Assembly (NCBI GenBank): GCA_039984955.1
Contig: JBDWTN010000007.1
Span: 3,170,501-3,234,500 of the forward strand
Reading direction: 5' to 3'
Source of the DNA: Marinobacter alexandrii
GTDB taxonomy: Bacteria; Bacteroidota; Bacteroidia; Cytophagales; Cyclobacteriaceae
Length of the DNA stretch: 64,000 nt
The translations under genes and the position numbers were made by a program. The notes below the pieces were generated by a model that saw only the letters and a list, made by a program, of their open reading frames with translations, searched no databases and had not been told where the DNA came from. Below, piece by piece: positions 1,379-18,606 of this stretch (positions are counted from its first letter, which is position 1; each line of letters opens with the position of its first letter).

Positions 1379-2068
1379 ATGACACAACAGACACGAACAA
1401 ACTCTAAAACCTGGCTTGGTATAGTACTAGTAGCATTAGGTAGTTATTTTTTACTCAGGAATTTTAACTTAATCCCATCCTTTTTACCATATTGGATTTT
1501 TAGTTGGGAGACCATTTTTGTTGTCATTGGGGGGGCTATGCTTGTGACAGGTCGCAGAGAAGGATTGATTTTTTTGGGTATCGGTGTTTTCTTTTTACTT
1601 CCAGATATTCTAGATGTTCCGCGTTTCCGTGTAAGAGACTGGTGGCCGGCAATCCTTATTATTATTGGTCTATCTATTTTTCTTAGAAAAAGACATTCTC
1701 AGGTTATGCAACCAGGAGATTTATCAAATGATTTTATTGAGGATACCTCTGTATTTGGAGGGTCAGAAAAAACGGTTACTTCTCGAAATTTGAAAGGGGG
1801 GAAGATCACTTCAATTTTTGGTGGGTCGGAGTTAAATCTTGTAGATGTTGAGTTGGGAAAAAAGGAGGTGTTAATTGATTATTTCTGCATGTTTGGTGGG
1901 AATGAAGTGACAGTACCTCATGATTGGACTGTGATAAATGAATCTGTCGTGGTTTTTGGAAGCTTTACTGATAGAAGATCGAATAGTCATGTAGTACAAG
2001 ATCCTGACAAGGTTTTACGAATTAAGGGCCTCATATTATTTGGAGGATTTGAAGTGCGGAGAGGCTAA
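1379..2068 (+). CDS. LiaF/YvqF-like membrane protein (DUF5668-type 4TM plus C-terminal domain)
   Basis: 229 residues. Four hydrophobic segments lie at about 13-30, 37-57, 62-77 and 89-105, typical of the 4TM half of LiaF-like proteins. From about 130 to the end comes the cell-wall-active-antibiotic-response domain, with repeated glycine-rich turns (VFGGSEK, IFGGSEL, MFGGNEV, LFGGFEV). In Firmicutes LiaF inhibits the kinase LiaS and reports lipid II damage. Here the gene is followed after 37 bases by a LytS-type kinase, so a similar inhibitor or sensor role for that kinase is a reasonable inference. The family assignment is strong; the partner is inferred from position. Confidence 0.85.
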   Translation: MTQQTRTNSKTWLGIVLVALGSYFLLRNFNLIPSFLPYWIFSWETIFVVIGGAMLVTGRREGLIFLGIGVFFLLPDILDVPRFRVRDWWPAILIIIGLSIFLRKRHSQVMQPGDLSNDFIEDTSVFGGSEKTVTSRNLKGGKITSIFGGSELNLVDVELGKKEVLIDYFCMFGGNEVTVPHDWTVINESVVVFGSFTDRRSNSHVVQDPDKVLRIKGLILFGGFEVRRG

Positions 2069-2105: not shown

Positions 2106-3164
2106 ATGAAGCATCCAATTCTGAGCGGTTCTGGTTACAAGTTTTACATGATCGTATGGCTTGTGATCATGCTTGTTCATGGTTCGGTGCTTTACTTCTA
2201 TTACGACTTCTCTATTTCGGTTGCCCTTGGAGATAGCTTGATCTACAACCTTATCTATGGAGCTATTGTGCCTGGATTTTGGTTTATTGTAGTTTTTGGA
2301 GGGTTAAATAAAGACAGTATATCACTCTTAGCTACTCACCTGGGAGCTGCGACGATTTCCATTGCCGTTTGGCTGACGGCTTCAGGAGTAATTTTAAAAA
2401 TCATCTTTAATACCAACGGGAGCTACATTCAGTTTTTGCAAGATGCCACTATATGGCGGGTGATAATTGGTTCATTGTTCTATAGTATAAGTGTGCTTCT
2501 CTTTTACTTAATTCGGTATTATCAGGACATGCAAGAACGGATGAATAGGGAGTTAGAACTTCAAAACCTACTTAAGGATTCTGAGCTTCGGATGCTCAAA
2601 TCTCAGATTAATCCGCACTTCATATTTAATAGCCTCAATTCCGTAAGTGCCCTGACCGTTACTAATCCGAAAGATGCTAGAGACATGGTAATTAAGCTAA
2701 GCGATTTTCTAAGATATTCGCTTGGAAAGGGAAATGAAGAGTTAACTCCTTTGAATAGAGAGGTTGAAAATGTAAGCCTTTATCTAAACATTGAAAAAAT
2801 TAGATTTGGCGATAAACTGGTATTTGAAAAGGAGATTGATCCGAAAACTGAGAATATCCTTTTGCCAAATATGATTTTACAGCCACTTGTTGAAAATGCA
2901 ATCAAACATGGTGTCTATGATAGTGTAGAGCCCGTTCTAATTAGGCTAAAGTGCTTTATGAATGGGCAGATACTTAGAATTAGCCTTGAAAATAGTTTTG
3001 ATAAGACAGCAATTCCTGTGAGGGGAGAAGGTATCGGATTGGAGAATGTGAAGAAACGACTGGATCTAGTATATGGTAAAAAAGATTTGCTGGCTATAAA
3101 TAAAAGCACAGAATTATTTGAAGTAGTTATTGAAGTTCCTCTGAAAGAATCTGATCATGAATAA
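2106..3164 (+). CDS. LytS-type sensor histidine kinase (His_kinase family)
   Basis: 352 residues. Four membrane segments fill residues 10-140, then a short coiled coil (QERMNRELELQNLLKDSELR) leads into the His_kinase domain. QINPHFIFNSLNS holds the phospho-acceptor His at about 171, and the ATP-binding part has LVENAIKHG and GIGLENVKKRL. The 3' end overlaps the following LytTR regulator by 8 bases, so the two are translated together as a two-component pair. The LiaF-like gene just upstream is the likely signal partner. Confidence 0.93.
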   Translation: MKHPILSGSGYKFYMIVWLVIMLVHGSVLYFYYDFSISVALGDSLIYNLIYGAIVPGFWFIVVFGGLNKDSISLLATHLGAATISIAVWLTASGVILKIIFNTNGSYIQFLQDATIWRVIIGSLFYSISVLLFYLIRYYQDMQERMNRELELQNLLKDSELRMLKSQINPHFIFNSLNSVSALTVTNPKDARDMVIKLSDFLRYSLGKGNEELTPLNREVENVSLYLNIEKIRFGDKLVFEKEIDPKTENILLPNMILQPLVENAIKHGVYDSVEPVLIRLKCFMNGQILRISLENSFDKTAIPVRGEGIGLENVKKRLDLVYGKKDLLAINKSTELFEVVIEVPLKESDHE

Positions 3165-3906
3165 AATACGAACACTGATTATCGACGATGAATATCTGGC
3201 AAGGCAAATTATTAGCGAATACCTGGGAGAGGATAGAGAGATTGAGGTTATCGGCGAATGTGACAATGGATTTGAAGGCTTTAAGCAAATAAATGAATTA
3301 CGGCCTGATTTAGTATTTCTAGATGTTATGATGCCCAAGTTGACAGGCTTTGAAATGCTGGAGTTGGTTGAGAACCCTCCGATTATCATCTTTAGTACGG
3401 CCTATGATGAATATGCGATAAAGGCATTTGAGCAGAATGCGATTGATTATTTACTAAAACCTTATACTCAAGAACGATTCATTACAGCTCTAAATAAAGC
3501 AAAGACAAAACTTAAGAGCCAAACAAATTCTCGAGCTACACTTGAAAAAATAATAGGTGGTAGTAGTGAAAAAGAAGAACTTTCAAGAATTGCAGTTAGG
3601 TTAGGAACGAAAATTCATATTGTGGGTGTAAATGAAATTCAATATTTGGAAGCTCAAGATGATTATGTGAAGCTTCATACAACAGAGGGAAGCTTCTTAA
3701 AACAACAGACAATGAAGTACTACGAGAACAATCTCTCCAGCGAAGATTTTGTTCGAATTCATCGATCATACATTGTTCGCATCAAAGAAATATCTAGGGT
3801 GGAATTAATGGGTAAAGACACCCATGTATTGCTGCTTCAAGATGAAACTCAACTCAATGTCAGTAGGTCTGGATATTCAAGATTAAAAGAAGTACTTAAT
3901 TTTTAA
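3157..3906 (+). CDS. LytTR-family response regulator
   Basis: 249 residues. The receiver domain (1-120) has the acidic pair DDE, phospho-acceptor Asp56 in FLDVMMPKLTG, and the KP of LLKPYTQ. The C-terminal LytTR DNA-binding domain (about 145-245) has the YLEAQDDYVKLHT, IHRSYIVRIKEI and VSRSGYSRLKE motifs. It is the partner of the overlapping upstream kinase. Target sites are not identifiable, but the BlaI/M56 pair begins 50 bases downstream on the same strand and is an obvious candidate target. Confidence 0.94.
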   Translation: MNKIRTLIIDDEYLARQIISEYLGEDREIEVIGECDNGFEGFKQINELRPDLVFLDVMMPKLTGFEMLELVENPPIIIFSTAYDEYAIKAFEQNAIDYLLKPYTQERFITALNKAKTKLKSQTNSRATLEKIIGGSSEKEELSRIAVRLGTKIHIVGVNEIQYLEAQDDYVKLHTTEGSFLKQQTMKYYENNLSSEDFVRIHRSYIVRIKEISRVELMGKDTHVLLLQDETQLNVSRSGYSRLKEVLNF

Positions 3907-3907
3907 T

Positions 3908-3949
3908 AACTATAAAAATAGTTGTATAATTATAATTATAGTTATATAC
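3908..3949. promoter_or_regulatory. AT-rich dyads before blaI-like gene (candidate operator)
   Basis: AACTAT-AAAA-ATAGTT (3908-3923) is followed by an overlapping near-palindrome (3924-3949, GTATAATTATAATTATAGTTATATAC). Together they fill the 50 bases before the BlaI-type repressor. BlaI/MecI proteins bind dyads of this sort in their own promoters, so autoregulation is likely. Confidence 0.5.
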
Positions 3950-3956
3950 TTGCTCC

Positions 3957-4331
3957 ATGAAGGAATTGACCAAAGCAGAGGAACAACTGATGCATTACCT
4001 CTGGACACTTGAAAAAGCATACTTAAAAGACATTGTAGAGCAATATCCAGAGCCTGCTCCTGCATACACAACTATTTCAACAGTGGTAAATGTATTGGTG
4101 AAGAAGGGGTTTATTGGATTTAATACACATGGAAAATCTAGAGAATATTACCCTCTGGTTACAAAAAAGACATATTCTGAACAATCAATGAAAGGCTTGA
4201 TGAGCAATTTTTTTGATAACTCTGCTAAACAATTTGCTTCTTTCTTCACGTCTCAAAAGAATCTTTCTGTAGAAGAACTACAGGAAATTAGAAAACTCAT
4301 TGATGACCAAATAGCACAACGCAAGTCATGA
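3957..4331 (+). CDS. BlaI/MecI-type transcriptional repressor
   Basis: 124 residues. An N-terminal winged helix begins LTKAEEQLMHYLWTLEKAYLKDIV, with the recognition region PAYTTISTVVNVLVKKGF, followed by a dimerisation helix region (SMKGLMSNFFDNS). BlaI proteins repress their operon until the M56 partner triggers their cleavage. It overlaps the next gene by 4 bases, the classic blaI-blaR1 arrangement. Dyad symmetry lies immediately upstream. There is no beta-lactamase gene nearby, so the regulon is probably this operon and envelope genes. Confidence 0.92.
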   Translation: MKELTKAEEQLMHYLWTLEKAYLKDIVEQYPEPAPAYTTISTVVNVLVKKGFIGFNTHGKSREYYPLVTKKTYSEQSMKGLMSNFFDNSAKQFASFFTSQKNLSVEELQEIRKLIDDQIAQRKS

Positions 4332-7324
4332 ACGAAGTGATCATTTATCTGATTAAGGTAATAGCTATTCATGGGCTACTCTACCTAGTCTATCGCCTTT
4401 TCCTTCATAGGAGCGCGCGGCATTCACCTAATCGTGGATATCTACTGCTTTCCTTCCTACTGGCCTTTATTATTCCTTTTCTTGAAATACCTCAAATTGA
4501 AGAAGCGCCCATTTTACCTGATGATAGCTCATTCATCATATGGCTTTCAGAGCCATCAAACTCTCTGGAGGAATTTGAATTGGTTCCTGTGGAAGAGCAG
4601 AGTTCTTTTTCATATTGGTCACTGCTACCGTGGTTATATGGAGTGCTGGCCTTAGGCTTTTTGATTAGATCAGTCGTATCCATATTTATACTTCAAAGAT
4701 TAAAAAAACATTCAGAGCCCGTCAAAAAACGATGGTTTACGCTCTTTAGGACTACACATAATCGTCCGTTTAGTTTCTTTACAAATGTATTTATTCCTAA
4801 GTCGCTTTTTGGATCACCTGCATTTGATCAGATACTTGCGCATGAATGTGTACATGTACGGCAGTTTCATTCAGTGGATAGACTGCTATTGGATTTCGTT
4901 GGTTCGCTGTTTTGGTTCAATCCCTTCATTTATCTGTACCGAAATGCACTTATCGAAATTCACGAATATCAAGCAGACGAGGAGGTGGTCAATCGATTCA
5001 AAGATCCGATTGGCTATCAGGAAATATTATTTTCACAATTACAGTCTGTGGAATACTCTGGTTTGGTAAGTCATTTCAATTTTTCAATGATTAAAAAAAG
5101 GATTGTAATGATGAACAAACAACGTAAGATGTCTGGGTGGGTCTATGCACTGACTGCTCCGATAATTCTAGTAATTGCTTTTGCTTTTTCTAGTAAAGAA
5201 GCCATTGAACCAATTGAAAAAGTTGGGAATGAGATCGCGGACCTTTTAGGTCCCGAACCAAGTCTTGGCATACTTCCTTTCTGGGATGCTTCTGAATTCA
5301 AAGTGAAAACTCAATTCAATAGTAAAGAGAAGGATAATAAACCTTCCATTTCTCCTGTGAAAGATTCTGATTTGATCCGATTATCATCTGGCTTTGGTAT
5401 GCGTACGCATCCTATTTACAAGGTGAAGAAGATGCATCAAGGTGTAGATTTCTCATGTAGAATGGGATCAGAAATTATGGCAAGTGCAGATGGTTTAGTG
5501 GTTGAAATTTCTGAAAAATCTGGTGGGTATGGAAAGATGATAACGATAGATCATCAAAATGGACACAAGTCAAGATACGCTCAACTTTCAGAATTCAAAG
5601 TGAAAAATGGAGATAGAGTGACCATAGGAGAGGTAATCGCTCTTTCAGGTAGCTCGGGAGCATCTACAGCTCCGCACTTACATTATGAGATTATAAAAGA
5701 TGGAGAGCACGTTGATCCGATTGATTATATAACAGACTATAGTCTTAGAGCAAAAAGTAGCATAAACGAATCGGAAAATGAGACTCAAGATTATACGCCA
5801 TCCATTTTACCCTTTAAGAGTACTGATAATGTGAGTATGACATCCGGTTTTGGTATGCGAATGCATCCTGTAGATAAAGTAAGGCAGCATCATAGAGGAA
5901 TTGATTTTTCAAGTCCGATTGGTACCACTGTGATTGCTACAGCTGATGGTGTGATTCATAATGCTGAAGCTCATGATAAATATGGAAAATTTGTTTTAAT
6001 AGATCATGGTGATGCGTATATGACCAGGTATGCTCACCTATCCAAGATGGATGTGAAACGTGGAGATGCAGTTAAGCGTGGAGATAAAATTGGGGAAAGT
6101 GGTAATTCAGGGGCGTCTAAAGAACCCCACCTTCATTATGAAGTGATGAAAGTAGGTACAGGATATGTGGACCCGATAGACTACATTAAAAATTTTACGG
6201 TTAAGCCTAAAACTATCTGGATTAAAGACTCTCCAAAAAAGCCTTCTGATGATTCACAAGAAAAAGAAGATGGAGAAGTTGAGGAAACTGTGGCCGTATC
6301 CGAGAGAGAAAAAGAAGGACTTGAGTTGGCTCGTGTAGAAAAACCTGATGCCAAAGTTAGAGTTGAATGGGAAATAGATGAGGAAGAGAGAGAGAAGACT
6401 GAGGTTCTTAGAAAGATTCAAGAGGAGAAATTGAAATTTGGTGATTCAAAGCAGGAGGGGAGGGTTAGCTATCTTGGTGACAAGCAGCCTCTGTTTGTAA
6501 TTGATGATGAGGTAGTAGATAATGTAAGCGACTTGGATCCTAACGATATTCAGGAGGTTACAGTATTGAAAGACAAAAGTGCGACCAGGTTGTATGGAAA
6601 AAAAGGGAAAAATGGAGTGATCGTAATCAAGACCAAAGACAAATACAAGAAAAAAGAAAAATCGAAGAATAAGAACAAGTCAGATCAAAGTGCAAAGTTT
6701 AGTAGAGAGGAGATAATAAGAACACAAAGAGAACTTGCAGCTCTTGGATACTTCGAATTAGAGAAGAAACCCTTAATGAAACCCTATAAAGTACTCATTG
6801 ATCCTGGTCATGGAGGAATGGATGATGGCACTAAATCTTCTTCTGGGATAACAGAGAAACATCTTGCTTTAGAGGTTAGTAAAGCAATAGGTAACTATTT
6901 TGATGATAATAAAGACATAATCATTCAGTTTACTAGAGAAAGCGATGCAGGTATTAGTTTAAAGGATCGATCCAAAGCTTCCGAGGAGGTTGACTTAATG
7001 ATCTCCATTCATCTGGATGCAGACATTGATTCAAAGGCGGACTTTACAAGTGTTTTCGTTGCTCCAGGAACCGACTTCTATGAGGAATCATTGAAAGTAT
7101 CTCAACGTATTGGCAAAGAGCTTACGAGCATCAATCGTGAAAGTAGGATCGGCTTATCTGACTTGTATGTTTTAAGAACGGCAAAATGTCCTGCAATACA
7201 TGTAAATCTTGGTTTTTTATCTAATGAAGATGATGCAACATATATCAATTCAATGGAGGGTAAAAACAAGATTGCTACAAGTATTTCAAAAGCAATAGAG
7301 CTAATTGCCACCAGCAAGAGTTAA
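4328..7324 (+). CDS. BlaR1-like M56 metallopeptidase fused to two M23 domains, SusC-plug-like domain and amidase_3
   Basis: 998 residues. The N-terminal part (1-290) is an M56 membrane metalloprotease with TM segments near 5-25, 37-55, 100-122 and 270-290 and the zinc site H172-E-C-V-H176 with E213 (HEYQAD). After the last TM come: M23 domain 1 (354-470; H370, D374 and H450/H452 present, but Q419 in place of the usual His); M23 domain 2 (495-620; H522, D526, H570 and H601/H603 all present); a charged linker; a SusC-type plug motif (718-770, LFVIDDEVVDNV to NGVIVIKTK); and an amidase_3 domain (820-995; H828 in DPGHGG, E843, H895, GFLSN at 962). No penicillin-binding sensor domain is visible. 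It overlaps blaI by 4 bases. Topology suggests the hydrolase domains face the periplasm. Confidence 0.92.
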   Translation: MNEVIIYLIKVIAIHGLLYLVYRLFLHRSARHSPNRGYLLLSFLLAFIIPFLEIPQIEEAPILPDDSSFIIWLSEPSNSLEEFELVPVEEQSSFSYWSLLPWLYGVLALGFLIRSVVSIFILQRLKKHSEPVKKRWFTLFRTTHNRPFSFFTNVFIPKSLFGSPAFDQILAHECVHVRQFHSVDRLLLDFVGSLFWFNPFIYLYRNALIEIHEYQADEEVVNRFKDPIGYQEILFSQLQSVEYSGLVSHFNFSMIKKRIVMMNKQRKMSGWVYALTAPIILVIAFAFSSKEAIEPIEKVGNEIADLLGPEPSLGILPFWDASEFKVKTQFNSKEKDNKPSISPVKDSDLIRLSSGFGMRTHPIYKVKKMHQGVDFSCRMGSEIMASADGLVVEISEKSGGYGKMITIDHQNGHKSRYAQLSEFKVKNGDRVTIGEVIALSGSSGASTAPHLHYEIIKDGEHVDPIDYITDYSLRAKSSINESENETQDYTPSILPFKSTDNVSMTSGFGMRMHPVDKVRQHHRGIDFSSPIGTTVIATADGVIHNAEAHDKYGKFVLIDHGDAYMTRYAHLSKMDVKRGDAVKRGDKIGESGNSGASKEPHLHYEVMKVGTGYVDPIDYIKNFTVKPKTIWIKDSPKKPSDDSQEKEDGEVEETVAVSEREKEGLELARVEKPDAKVRVEWEIDEEEREKTEVLRKIQEEKLKFGDSKQEGRVSYLGDKQPLFVIDDEVVDNVSDLDPNDIQEVTVLKDKSATRLYGKKGKNGVIVIKTKDKYKKKEKSKNKNKSDQSAKFSREEIIRTQRELAALGYFELEKKPLMKPYKVLIDPGHGGMDDGTKSSSGITEKHLALEVSKAIGNYFDDNKDIIIQFTRESDAGISLKDRSKASEEVDLMISIHLDADIDSKADFTSVFVAPGTDFYEESLKVSQRIGKELTSINRESRIGLSDLYVLRTAKCPAIHVNLGFLSNEDDATYINSMEGKNKIATSISKAIELIATSKS

Positions 7325-10716: not shown

Positions 10717-11817
10717 TTATCGATACATATATTCAAATAGTCCTGTAATGACTTCTGAGGCTCCTATATATATACCCACGCCATAAGTCACATGTCTTAC
10801 AGATAAATTTCGTATTGCAAACGGCAAGCCACTGATATTAGCCATGGTGAATCCAGCTCCTATGATGAGTGCAGCAATCAAAGTCAAATATGGATCGTAC
10901 GAAAAAATCATGGTCCCTACACCAACAGCTAGAACTATAAAGCTACTAACAATCACCTTTCGCAAATTGGATTTTGACACCTTCTTACTAATCAAGAAGC
11001 CTGATACAGCACAGATCCCAAGAATGGCAAAAGAAATGTATCCCTCATATTCTGTAAATCCGGGAAATCTAGTTGCAAAATGTTCAGGTAAAAATTCAAC
11101 TAAAAACGCTTTCCCCAAACCCAGAAAAAGGCCTACAACGACAATTGCTAAATAGGACATGGGTGTCTGAGTTTTTACACGATCATTTGCAATAAGCTCT
11201 GATTTTCGCTGCATTACTTCGTCTCGAGAGACCTTATGAAAAATAAAACCAGTGACTGAGATTAGGATTCCGCCCACAATGAATGTCAGAGTATCTCCAA
11301 AGAATAGTACTAATGCCACTACAACAGGTTCTAATGCGTAGAGGAGTTCCGTGACAAGAAAAAGTACACCTACCACGATGGGCAGTTGCTTAGCCGGTGC
11401 AAATGCTTCAATCATTGAATTGGCAGGACTGATAAAAAGGTTCATACAGATAAGCCATATGACAATCATAAAAGGAACGATTGTGCTAACATCGATAACG
11501 TCAGAAGTACCTATGAGGGTGGCAACAACCATGAAAACCATAGCAGTAGCCCCAATACCAACGGTGAAAATGATTAGGTACTTTCCATTTTTTTGTAAAA
11601 TTTTATCTGAGAGCCATCCTGCAATAGGAGGTATGGTTACTAATATGATAGCCTTGGCTACAATCATGAAATCTACTAAGTGTGTGATTCCTAGGTTTTT
11701 CATTAACACAGGCTGATATTCATGATAAGCGATCCAGCTAATGACCACTGCTGCATTAAGTGCCGCGAGACTATAGACTTCTCTCCATTTTAGAGTTTGT
11801 GATTTTTCAGATAACAT
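10717..11817 (-). CDS. MFS transporter
   Basis: 366 residues, almost wholly hydrophobic with roughly ten to twelve TM segments. The loop after TM2 carries GWLSDKILQKNGKYLI, a variant of the MFS loop 2-3 signature, and the N-terminus (WREVYSLAALNAAVVISWIAYHEYQPVLM) looks like SLC45/sugar-type MFS members. It is shorter than the usual 400-450 residues but starts and ends cleanly. The substrate cannot be told. It is monocistronic: a terminator follows, and the preceding gene at 12339 is separated by about 110 bases. Confidence 0.82.
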   Translation of the reverse strand: MLSEKSQTLKWREVYSLAALNAAVVISWIAYHEYQPVLMKNLGITHLVDFMIVAKAIILVTIPPIAGWLSDKILQKNGKYLIIFTVGIGATAMVFMVVATLIGTSDVIDVSTIVPFMIVIWLICMNLFISPANSMIEAFAPAKQLPIVVGVLFLVTELLYALEPVVVALVLFFGDTLTFIVGGILISVTGFIFHKVSRDEVMQRKSELIANDRVKTQTPMSYLAIVVVGLFLGLGKAFLVEFLPEHFATRFPGFTEYEGYISFAILGICAVSGFLISKKVSKSNLRKVIVSSFIVLAVGVGTMIFSYDPYLTLIAALIIGAGFTMANISGLPFAIRNLSVRHVTYGVGIYIGASEVITGLFEYMYR

Positions 11818-16797: not shown

Positions 16798-18189
16798 TTA
16801 TTCTCCGGTCTTTGTTGAAGGACTAGAGGCATCAAGAGTAAAAGCTTCGTTAGTTTCTTTCCTATATACCACAAATCTTTTAGCTATTTGAGAGGTAGGT
16901 ATTTCGAATTTTCCTTCGTCATCTGATATTGCCTTTTCAGATTTTTCTCCACCCAAGATGACTACATAGGCTCCCTTCATGGGGTTCCCAGATTTTTCCG
17001 TGATAATTCCTTTAAATGTTTTTCCATCATTATTGAGAATGGCGTATTGTATATCTCTTTCTTGGGATGAGTTAACCTTATTATCAAGCAACGCATTACC
17101 ATTTTTTGCTAATTCGATATCTATAATCGACCTTTTTTTTACGCTCACAGACACAGGTTCAAAACCAATCATTGAATACGTTAGTTTATCGTTATCACTA
17201 TCAAGACCTCCAATACGATATTCTCCTTTAAGGTTTGTTACAACACCTAGGTCTTTGCCTTCTACTATTACACTTACTCCTGGCAAGGCTTTACCTTCAC
17301 CATTAACAACATGACCTGATATTTCTACTGGAGTTGTGTTTTGTAAACTCTCGGGGTTACATGCAAGGATTAACATAGCAAGCACAGGAATTACAAATAG
17401 TAGCTTGGCCTTTTTGATTCCTTTGGTTTTTTCTTTGTTCATCATAATTATTCTGTTTTTGGCTGAAATTTGATTGAATGGGCTGGTTAAGGATAATCCA
17501 GCGTTGCTGAATAGTGATTGGATCAATATTTTTTGATAGCTACTTACAGACGTTCTTGAAACGACTGCCTCATCGCAGATAAACTCATGAATGGTCTTAA
17601 TGCTCTTATTGTATAAGAGTAATATCGGGTTAAACCAAAAAAATATGTAGATCAGTTGTACTATTATTAAGTCAATAGAGTGAAGTCCATTTACATGTTT
17701 TTTTTCATGCAAGAGCATGTATTTAAGTGATTCTTTTGAAGTGGATTTTGGAATGAAGATGAATTTGAAAAATGAAGAAATAGGAATTGATTCTTCCGTA
17801 TAGACTCGAATATAATCTTCATGCTGCTCTTTTGGGGTTTTTCTAACTATCGATAAGATGACATTAAGTCTGATTGCAAATCTGATACACATAAACAAAA
17901 CACCAGTTAAGTATATGCTGGCAAGCAGGGACCACTGAGAATCAGTCTGAGCGCTGGCAGTTGTAGGAATAGTCAGGGCTTGAACTGATCGGGTTAAGTC
18001 ATTGATCTCTGGGGATCCAATAGCAGCGTTCCATTCGAGGGGAACAGTAGGCAGAATGAGAGATAAGAAAATTGAACTGATGAGATATATTCTCTGCAAA
18101 TGAAACAGCTTTTCTCTTTTAAGAAGAATATGATAGCATCCATAAAGAGCGCACAGACAGATTGATGCTTGAATGAAATAAGTTATCAT
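16798..18189 (-). CDS. BlaR1-like M56 metallopeptidase with CarboxypepD_reg-type domains
   Basis: 463 residues. The M56 part (1-290) has TM helices near 2-20, 35-50, 92-112 and 265-285, and the zinc motif H161-E-K-K-H165 with a downstream HEFICDEAVV. The extracytoplasmic part begins with a carboxypeptidase-regulatory-like beta domain (ISGHVVNGEGKALPGVSVIVEG...GEYRI), followed by a second related unit (FKGIITEKSGNPMKGAYVVIL...EGKFEI). It overlaps the BlaI gene by 4 bases. In contrast to the M56 protein at 4328 it has no peptidoglycan hydrolase domain, so the two systems probably respond to different cues. Confidence 0.9.
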   Translation of the reverse strand: MITYFIQASICLCALYGCYHILLKREKLFHLQRIYLISSIFLSLILPTVPLEWNAAIGSPEINDLTRSVQALTIPTTASAQTDSQWSLLASIYLTGVLFMCIRFAIRLNVILSIVRKTPKEQHEDYIRVYTEESIPISSFFKFIFIPKSTSKESLKYMLLHEKKHVNGLHSIDLIIVQLIYIFFWFNPILLLYNKSIKTIHEFICDEAVVSRTSVSSYQKILIQSLFSNAGLSLTSPFNQISAKNRIIMMNKEKTKGIKKAKLLFVIPVLAMLILACNPESLQNTTPVEISGHVVNGEGKALPGVSVIVEGKDLGVVTNLKGEYRIGGLDSDNDKLTYSMIGFEPVSVSVKKRSIIDIELAKNGNALLDNKVNSSQERDIQYAILNNDGKTFKGIITEKSGNPMKGAYVVILGGEKSEKAISDDEGKFEIPTSQIAKRFVVYRKETNEAFTLDASSPSTKTGE

Positions 18190-18545
18190 TTTTTGTTTTC
18201 TTTCAATTTTTTAGACAGCTCTTCGAAAGTTTCTAAATCAAGGTCCTTGTTATTTAAGAAGTGAGATAACATATGCTCGAGTGATCCATCGAAGTAATTA
18301 GTTAGAAAATCTTTCATGAGAGATGTAGTGTATTTTCCCTTTGAGATTTTTGGAGAGTATTGGAATATGTTTCCATATTTCTCTCTGGTCACAAATCCTT
18401 TTTGTTCGAGAATTTTCAAAAATGTTCCCACGGTATTATAAGCCGGTTTGGGATCAGGCAGATGAGATATTATATCCCTAATAAAAATTTTTTTTTGCTG
18501 CCATATCACCTGCATTACTTGCTCTTCAGCCTTGGTTAATTTCAT
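18186..18545 (-). CDS. BlaI/MecI-type transcriptional repressor
   Basis: 119 residues. Winged helix LTKAEEQVMQVIWQQKKIFIRDII with recognition region KPAYNTVGTFLKILEQKGF; C-terminal dimerisation region SLMKDFLTNYFDGSLEHMLSHFL. It is clearly paralogous to the protein at 3957. The stop overlaps the M56 start. The region upstream holds nested palindromes that probably form its own operator. Confidence 0.92.
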   Translation of the reverse strand: MKLTKAEEQVMQVIWQQKKIFIRDIISHLPDPKPAYNTVGTFLKILEQKGFVTREKYGNIFQYSPKISKGKYTTSLMKDFLTNYFDGSLEHMLSHFLNNKDLDLETFEELSKKLKENKK

Positions 18546-18550
18546 AGTAT

Positions 18551-18606
18551 TACTATTTGAATAGTAAATATCCTAAAAAATTAGGAGTATTCCTAATTTT
18601 TTAGGA
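18551..18606. promoter_or_regulatory. Candidate BlaI operators: nested inverted repeats
   Basis: TACTAT-TTGA-ATAGTA (18551-18566) lies next to the repressor start codon. Immediately beyond it is a 36-base near-perfect palindrome (18571-18606) built from two copies of TCCTAA(A/T)nTTAGGA, mismatched only at the four central bases. The position and symmetry fit autoregulation by the BlaI-type repressor. Confidence 0.65.

Follow-up and report, generated by a model that had tools for sequence, protein, structure and literature searches.

A BlaR1-like M56 protease fused to peptidoglycan-hydrolase folds with altered catalytic residues: a candidate cell-wall receptor in Cyclobacteriaceae

In the 64,000-nucleotide stretch of the Marinobacter alexandrii genome analysed here (assembly GCA_039984955.1, contig JBDWTN010000007.1, positions 3,170,501 to 3,234,500 of the forward strand; hereafter the window), the gene that follows a blaI repressor gene encodes a protein of 998 residues in which a BlaR1-like M56 zinc protease is joined to two M23 (LytM-type) folds, a plug-like fragment and an Amidase_3 fold. 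Comparison with relatives and with stand-alone enzymes indicates that the wall-enzyme domains fused to M56 are mostly decommissioned, the catalytic residue being lost and the zinc ligands mostly kept, and this decommissioning is what is new in the present work. The reading that we favour, and to which we give an even chance, is that of a BlaR1-type transmembrane protease which would control BlaI and use peptidoglycan-hydrolase folds as its periplasmic sensor.

Results

Architecture and topology of the protein

The gene (4328..7324, + strand) was delineated by open reading frame (ORF), Pfam, NCBIfam and PDB searches and is a single unbroken frame, with an ATG at 4328, a stop codon ending at 7324 and zero internal stops. 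In the Pfam scan, Peptidase_M56 (43.0 bits; cut-off 31), Peptidase_M23 (212.1 bits over two stretches; cut-off 28.7) and Amidase_3 (125.3 bits; cut-off 27) were over threshold, the last two being found in the part of the chain where an earlier note on this DNA had placed them. That note had described a five-domain chain: M56, both M23 domains and Amidase_3 stand, and the plug domain is reduced to a short sub-threshold fragment. The Plug model reached 16.2 bits, partial and under its cut-off of 23.9; residues 714-776 (6467..6655, +) align with the RagA/SusC model TIGR04056 over a portion of its length (61.9 bits; cut-off 368.25), the SusC signature TIGR04057 scored 41.7 bits against a cut-off of 46.2 in the same stretch, and RagA was matched in the PDB (E 3.5e-7). 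A complete plug domain was ruled out by the Pfam and NCBIfam scores, and the stretch is a real yet partial SusC/RagA fragment.

The M56 part (residues 1-290; 4328..5197, +), delimited by Pfam and hydropathy, holds four predicted transmembrane (TM) helices at residues 4-22, 39-57, 99-117 and 269-287. The HExxH motif (residues 172-176, bases 4841-4855) falls between TM3 and TM4, on the inner side according to hydropathy and the positive-inside count. The zinc site of family M56 is complete, as had been read earlier: H172-E-C-V-H176, with E173 in the motif, and E213 within HEYQAD. The best PDB match of this part was BlaR1, at a weak E value (0.009), and the NCBIfam BlaR1 model NF000326 gave 14.2 bits against a cut-off of 400 for the 998-residue protein. 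The sequence beyond about residue 290 is predicted to be extracytoplasmic, in a BlaR1-like topology; the placing of the wall-enzyme domains where BlaR1 has its sensor, claimed in the earlier note, is borne out in a prediction from hydropathy only. No penicillin-binding (class D-like) sensor domain was found in the Pfam scan of the protein, and wall-enzyme domains stand there instead, in agreement with the replacement of the sensor that the same note had proposed.

The M56 part, one M23, the plug fragment and the amidase are all retained in a relative from another genome, which is 55% identical overall and 62% identical in the best segment, and a chance or mis-assembled fusion was rejected since relatives preserve the domain order. 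An AlphaFold model calculated on a two-row alignment had a mean pLDDT of 33.6, too poor to be used for anything.

Catalytic residues of the fused wall-enzyme domains

Relatives were collected with residues 1-475 as query against 390 genomes of the family, followed by ORF analysis of the fetched stretches; G and L numbers are the labels of genomes and of fetched loci in our samples. The 39 fusion loci examined (37 family genomes, a second locus of G003 and the distant G657) hold 43 M56-fused proteins, L006 being left out of the counts as the same gene as L055 (G005). Membership of this set was called by HExxH, and none of the four excluded ORFs matched M56.

In the window protein, M23-1 (residues 339-468; 5342..5731, +) keeps H370, D374, H450 and H452, which include the zinc ligands H370, D374 and H452, and PDB alignments place Q419 at the second active-site histidine of M23 peptidases (His260 of LytM). 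M23-2 (residues 491-620; 5798..6187, +) has the complete HDHHH set (H522, D526, H570, H601 and H603), that is, the zinc ligands and both active-site histidines. The Amidase_3 domain (residues 820-991; 6785..7300, +) retains the zinc ligands H828, E843 and H895 and carries N960 where all five amidases printed in the PDB alignments have the catalytic Glu.

Stand-alone domains of relatives were used as controls, namely 30 high-scoring domains for M23 and, for the amidase, 30 loci to which the 8 remaining non-fusion rows were added. All five active-site residues were present in 30/30 M23 controls. The 30 best-scoring amidases all have the three zinc ligands (HEH) and the Glu; the 8 lower-scoring ones, of which three did not cover every zinc ligand in the alignment, add seven Glu and one Asp, which brings Glu to 37/38. 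The Asp comes from L286 (1182-1864, G011), an amidase-like ORF that stands alone and contains masked bases. In the amidases fused to M56, by contrast, HEH was found in 12/12 and Glu in 1/12; the other eleven have Asn (5), Ser (3), Ile (1), His (1) or Asp (1), the C-terminus of the G002 amidase being poorly aligned near this site. The variety of residues at the Glu position argues for several separate changes. At the His260 position, the first M23 domains of the fused proteins (n = 42) have Gln in 24 cases, Ser in 4, Asn in 1 and His in 13, a loss in 29/42 in which one counted Gln (G307, 686-residue ORF) comes from a badly aligned, decayed M23. Against the 30-protein controls, Fisher tests gave p = 2.8e-9 for the loss of the amidase Glu and 3.6e-10 for that of the M23 His, with shared ancestry ignored.

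The other seven of the eight genus members that have the gene carry a single M23 with Gln, and in a tree of M23 domains the window M23-2 sits among these Gln-bearing domains. Its His may be a reversion, or the Gln of the others may reflect parallel changes. The distant G657 is arranged as the window locus, with blaI, M56, a first M23 altered from His to Asn and an intact second M23.

Conservation of the BlaR1-BlaI relay

HExxH and the third zinc ligand were found in 43/43 M56-fused proteins. In S. aureus, as PMC9834060 describes, BlaR1 autocleavage occurs at Ser283-Phe284 and BlaI is cut between Asn101 and Phe102. F250 of the window protein aligns with the residue after the BlaR1 autocleavage point, which is Phe in 33/43 fused proteins, and F97 of the window BlaI aligns with the MecI/BlaI cleavage position, occupied by Phe in 35/37 other BlaIs. 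Judged from these positions, the relay chemistry looks kept.

The resemblance to BlaR1/MecR1 and BlaI/MecI of Staphylococcus and Bacillus licheniformis covers the four predicted TM helices, an M56 zinc protease predicted to be cytoplasmic, an extracytoplasmic sensor, a BlaI/MecI-type partner and Phe at the matching cleavage positions. Unlike these receptors, the window protein lacks a penicillin-binding sensor, in whose place stand the two M23 folds, the plug fragment and the amidase fold. The repressor family has a second link to the wall: BlaI of B. licheniformis is itself bound by a peptidoglycan dipeptide (PMC3305447).

Distribution of M56-wall-enzyme fusions

The M56-M23 fusion was found in at least 37 of the 390 family genomes, in 14 genera, a lower bound as few candidates were scored per genome; a unique architecture for M56-M23 was rejected on this recurrence. 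The orthologue is present in 8/10 genomes of the genus, the two without it being the smallest (2.7 and 3.0 Mb). In the seven other members, identity is 58-65% for the M23 domains, compared with a window M23, and 50-68% for the M56 parts. In a phylum sample (395 genomes, E 1e-35), a match spanning M56 and M23 was found solely in the own genome and in G657, again a lower bound with few candidates scored per genome. A blaI gene lies directly upstream at 39/39 fusion loci, that of G657 scoring 88.4 bits with Penicillinase_R. This is the count of homologues and blaI neighbours that the earlier note had proposed, and it gives the full order M56-M23-M23-plug-amidase for the window protein alone among the 43. 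The view that no described system has this order is kept for the exact order; it fails for the M56-M23 pair, which recurs as above and is named in the review PMC9662197.

Amidase_3 occurs in 12/43 fused proteins, namely those of the window, G002, G005, G007 and seven genomes of genus g76, and the second protein of G003, an M56-amidase without M23; M23 and amidase folds share a chain in 11/43. Two M23 domains per chain were seen in the window protein, G657, G312 and G307. At the second G003 locus (L058, 829-2283), blaI is followed by M56 joined directly to Amidase_3 with Asp at the catalytic Glu position. At L112 (G312) two M56-M23 genes stand in tandem behind one blaI, and at L114 (G307) three, one G307 ORF running off its locus; several of these M23 domains are badly decayed. 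In G001 (L051, 5335-7860) the orthologue ends in a DUF4251 domain and not in an amidase, and the C-terminal module therefore appears to have been swapped within the genus. Separate small M23 genes lie just downstream of the M56-M23 gene in G025 (L059, 6939-7484) and G011 (L060, 2944-3549), which suggests that the switch and a wall hydrolase can share a transcript. G354 was dropped from the fusion set as an M56 without M23, and an amidase in a 950-residue open frame of G013 was set aside as no M56 was seen on reading the ORF.

The own genome has five M56 genes, and this one alone carries wall-enzyme domains. Among the paralogues, L118 and L119 have no domain other than M56 above cut-off, L120 has M56 and a TonB C-terminus, and the fourth has an added carboxypeptidase-regulatory-like domain.

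Predicted operator and candidate regulon

A tandem dyad, the predicted BlaI operator, lies just upstream of blaI (3909..3942, +); it had zero matches in 100 shuffles of the window. Only two copies of ACTATNNNNATAGT occur within the 64 kb, each directly upstream of one of the two blaI genes of the window, for a chance mean of 0.10. In the 37 family fusion genomes (G657 left out), the tandem dyad was found with at most 1 mismatch before blaI in 29/37, most often at a distance of exactly 39 bases; a site was counted when it lay in the 125 bases before the annotated start of blaI or reached into a 5'-extended start. Any match was seen in 4/37 control genomes, hand-picked among family genomes without an M56-M23 row among the matches listed, and two of these four, G093 and G024, have theirs at other blaI-M56 operons. 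The tandem dyad is missing from eight fusion genomes (G025, G011, G147, G198, G269, G120, G312 and G307), which have other upstream sequences; in five of them (L106, L107, L110, L112 and L114) its place is taken by a different palindrome, CTCTACATTTGTAGAG or a one-base variant of it. Still other dyads precede the remaining blaI paralogues of the own genome, as if there were one operator per BlaI. An overlap of dyad and promoter is not claimed: a loose pattern of the Bacteroidota promoter type was found in 23/41 upstream stretches and was absent from that of the window.

The own genome has three exact matches to the tandem pattern. One precedes blaI, one lies upstream of an FtsX/MacB-type permease gene, and the third, flanked by a permease gene and a polysaccharide deacetylase gene, stands immediately before the start of the latter; the two sites away from blaI are near C7:1822643 and C7:1877938. 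With at most 2 mismatches, 7 matches were obtained vs 2 in a reversed control. G005 also has the deacetylase site, at the corresponding gene, and G002 has a permease site at another paralogue. The deacetylase was recognised by Polysacc_deac_1 (48 bits; cut-off 23.1), with no specific peptidoglycan deacetylase model over cut-off.

Neighbourhood in the window

The blaI gene (3957..4331, +; Penicillinase_R, 99.6 bits in Pfam) overlaps the start of the M56 gene by 4 bases, so that a BlaI-family repressor stands in the same operon, as in BlaR1/MecR1-type systems. Upstream lie genes for a LiaF-like membrane protein (1379..2068, +), a histidine kinase (2106..3164, +) and a LytTR response regulator (3157..3906, +), the last two together spanning 2106..3906. 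This fits an envelope-stress neighbourhood, without proving one.

A second blaI (18186..18545, -) has its M56 partner at 16798-18189 and a single dyad at 18552-18565. This second operon (16798-18565, -) encodes a 463-residue M56 protein with a carboxypeptidase-regulatory-like domain and without M23 or amidase. Its dyad, 7 bases upstream of blaI, is of the same kind as that of the first operon, and cross-talk between the two BlaIs is therefore possible. A major facilitator superfamily (MFS) gene (10717-11817, -) lies near the locus in all 8 genus members that have the M56-M23 gene; an AmpG-like identity for it found no support, MFS_1 alone being recognised.

Discussion

In the favoured scheme, BlaI would occupy the tandem dyads that precede its own operon and a few envelope genes. 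Peptidoglycan or muropeptides would be the ligands of M23-1 and of the amidase fold, bound at the retained zinc sites of these domains without efficient turnover, and the intact M23-2 may bind or trim. A change in wall structure would then alter the ectodomain and, by analogy with BlaR1, be transmitted through the TM helices to the cytoplasmic M56 site. Once switched, M56 would cut BlaI, and expression of the switch itself and, in this genome, of the polysaccharide deacetylase and of the FtsX/MacB permease would be derepressed. The earlier note had allowed either sensing or cutting of the wall. For M23-1 and the amidase we favour sensing, as Gln and Asn occupy the catalytic His and Glu positions while the zinc ligands stay; M23-2 could still cut.

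Several observations weigh against this scheme. Its chief weakness lies in the intact domains: M23-2 has all five active-site residues, and the catalytic His is still present in 13/42 first M23 domains of the fused proteins. Inactivity is therefore not uniform across the family, some members of which may still act as wall-cutting enzymes; the amidase of G005 also retains its Glu, and a combined sensor-hydrolase is possible. His260 itself 'might participate' in water activation, in the words of the review PMC9662197, and Gln there need not abolish activity. The zinc site is also damaged in 4/42 fused first M23 domains. The controls were top-scoring matches, which favours intact motifs, and their lower-scoring extension covered amidases only, adding one Asp. 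Phe at the position of F250 is not universal, 10/43 fused proteins differing. As for the regulon, extra sites are few: with at most 1 mismatch, the site before blaI is the sole one in G001, G003, G004, G006 and G007, and a further one-mismatch tandem site of the own genome lies at C5:884443. The single dyad was rejected as a regulon marker, as it gave 12 sites genome-wide vs 19 for a reversed control, without enrichment.

The intact residues of M23-2, of the 13 first domains and of G005 would suit a protein whose main role is that of a wall hydrolase tethered to the membrane, peptidoglycan being cut by M23-2 and perhaps by other domains while M56 and BlaI set the dose by feedback; the small M23 genes downstream in G025 (with Gln) and G011 (with His) would suit it too. 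These residues are missing, however, in 0/30 stand-alone M23 domains and 1/38 stand-alone amidases but in most fused ones, and the single M23 of the other 7/8 genus members has Gln, so that we regard this explanation as rather unlikely. Degenerate M23 proteins are also known as amidase activators (PMC9662197), and an EnvC/NlpD-like hub can be imagined in which an altered LytM fold activates a partner amidase and M56 reports the assembly of the complex to BlaI. The sharing of a chain by M23 and amidase folds in 11 fused proteins and the one separate stand-alone amidase of the own genome would agree with such a role. It is made improbable by the retention of zinc ligands in most domains here, whereas known LytM hubs such as EnvC and NlpD often lose them, and by the cis amidase, itself without Glu in 11/12.

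The free variation at the amidase Glu position (N, S, I, H, D) and the decay of some M23 domains in G312 and G307 could also mean that the extracytoplasmic domains are neutrally drifting relics in an operon with another role. The zinc ligands kept in 12/12 fused amidases speak against drift, as do the M23 domains of the seven other genus members, which at 58-65% identity are conserved beside M56 parts at 50-68%, and we consider relics very improbable. Sensing of a β-lactam or another small molecule as in BlaR1, with wall-enzyme domains that merely anchor the protein, would be in line with the M56/BlaI pairing and with PetRP, another BlaI/BlaR1-type pair, which responds to copper (PMC7896320). 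The Pfam scan shows no penicillin-binding domain, though, and the two extra exact tandem sites sit at deacetylase and permease genes; of the explanations weighed here we give this one the slightest chance.

Parts of the sensor reading have counterparts in known systems. PetR/PetP of cyanobacteria, from the BlaI and BlaR1 families, likewise re-use the relay for another cue, but cue and targets are different (PMC7896320). The EnvC/NlpD-type LytM activators and Amidase_3 enzymes share with the window protein a degenerate M23 fold and an amidase at the wall (PMC9662197), whereas the window protein holds both folds in one receptor-like chain, with zinc ligands mostly kept and the amidase Glu lost. 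The same domain pair, M23 with M56, is reported from InterPro in that 2022 review, in which M23 proteins with another catalytic domain, M56 included, make up <1% of hits and a role of M56 in peptidoglycan cleavage is called unproven; neither a link to BlaI nor catalytic decay, an operator or the five-part order appears in its section 10 (PMC9662197). No study of an M56-M23-BlaI system was found in the open PMC literature, a weak absence as most subscription papers lie outside that search.

More tentatively, and somewhat short of an even chance, these proteins may form a bacterial class of transmembrane receptors for peptidoglycan. LytM and amidase folds retired from catalysis, with zinc ligands kept and catalytic residues lost, would read the wall, and M56 proteolysis of BlaI would signal to an envelope regulon. 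Such a class would be a counterpart of the animal amidase-derived receptors: the eukaryotic peptidoglycan recognition proteins are receptors built from an amidase fold without catalysis, of an unrelated amidase family and with an unrelated signalling path. BlaR1 is known as a β-lactam sensor; if our reading is true, the same relay would read the wall itself through decommissioned LytM and amidase folds, and wall-damage sensing in these Bacteroidota would become directly testable, with a defined receptor, a repressor, a predicted operator and a short list of targets.

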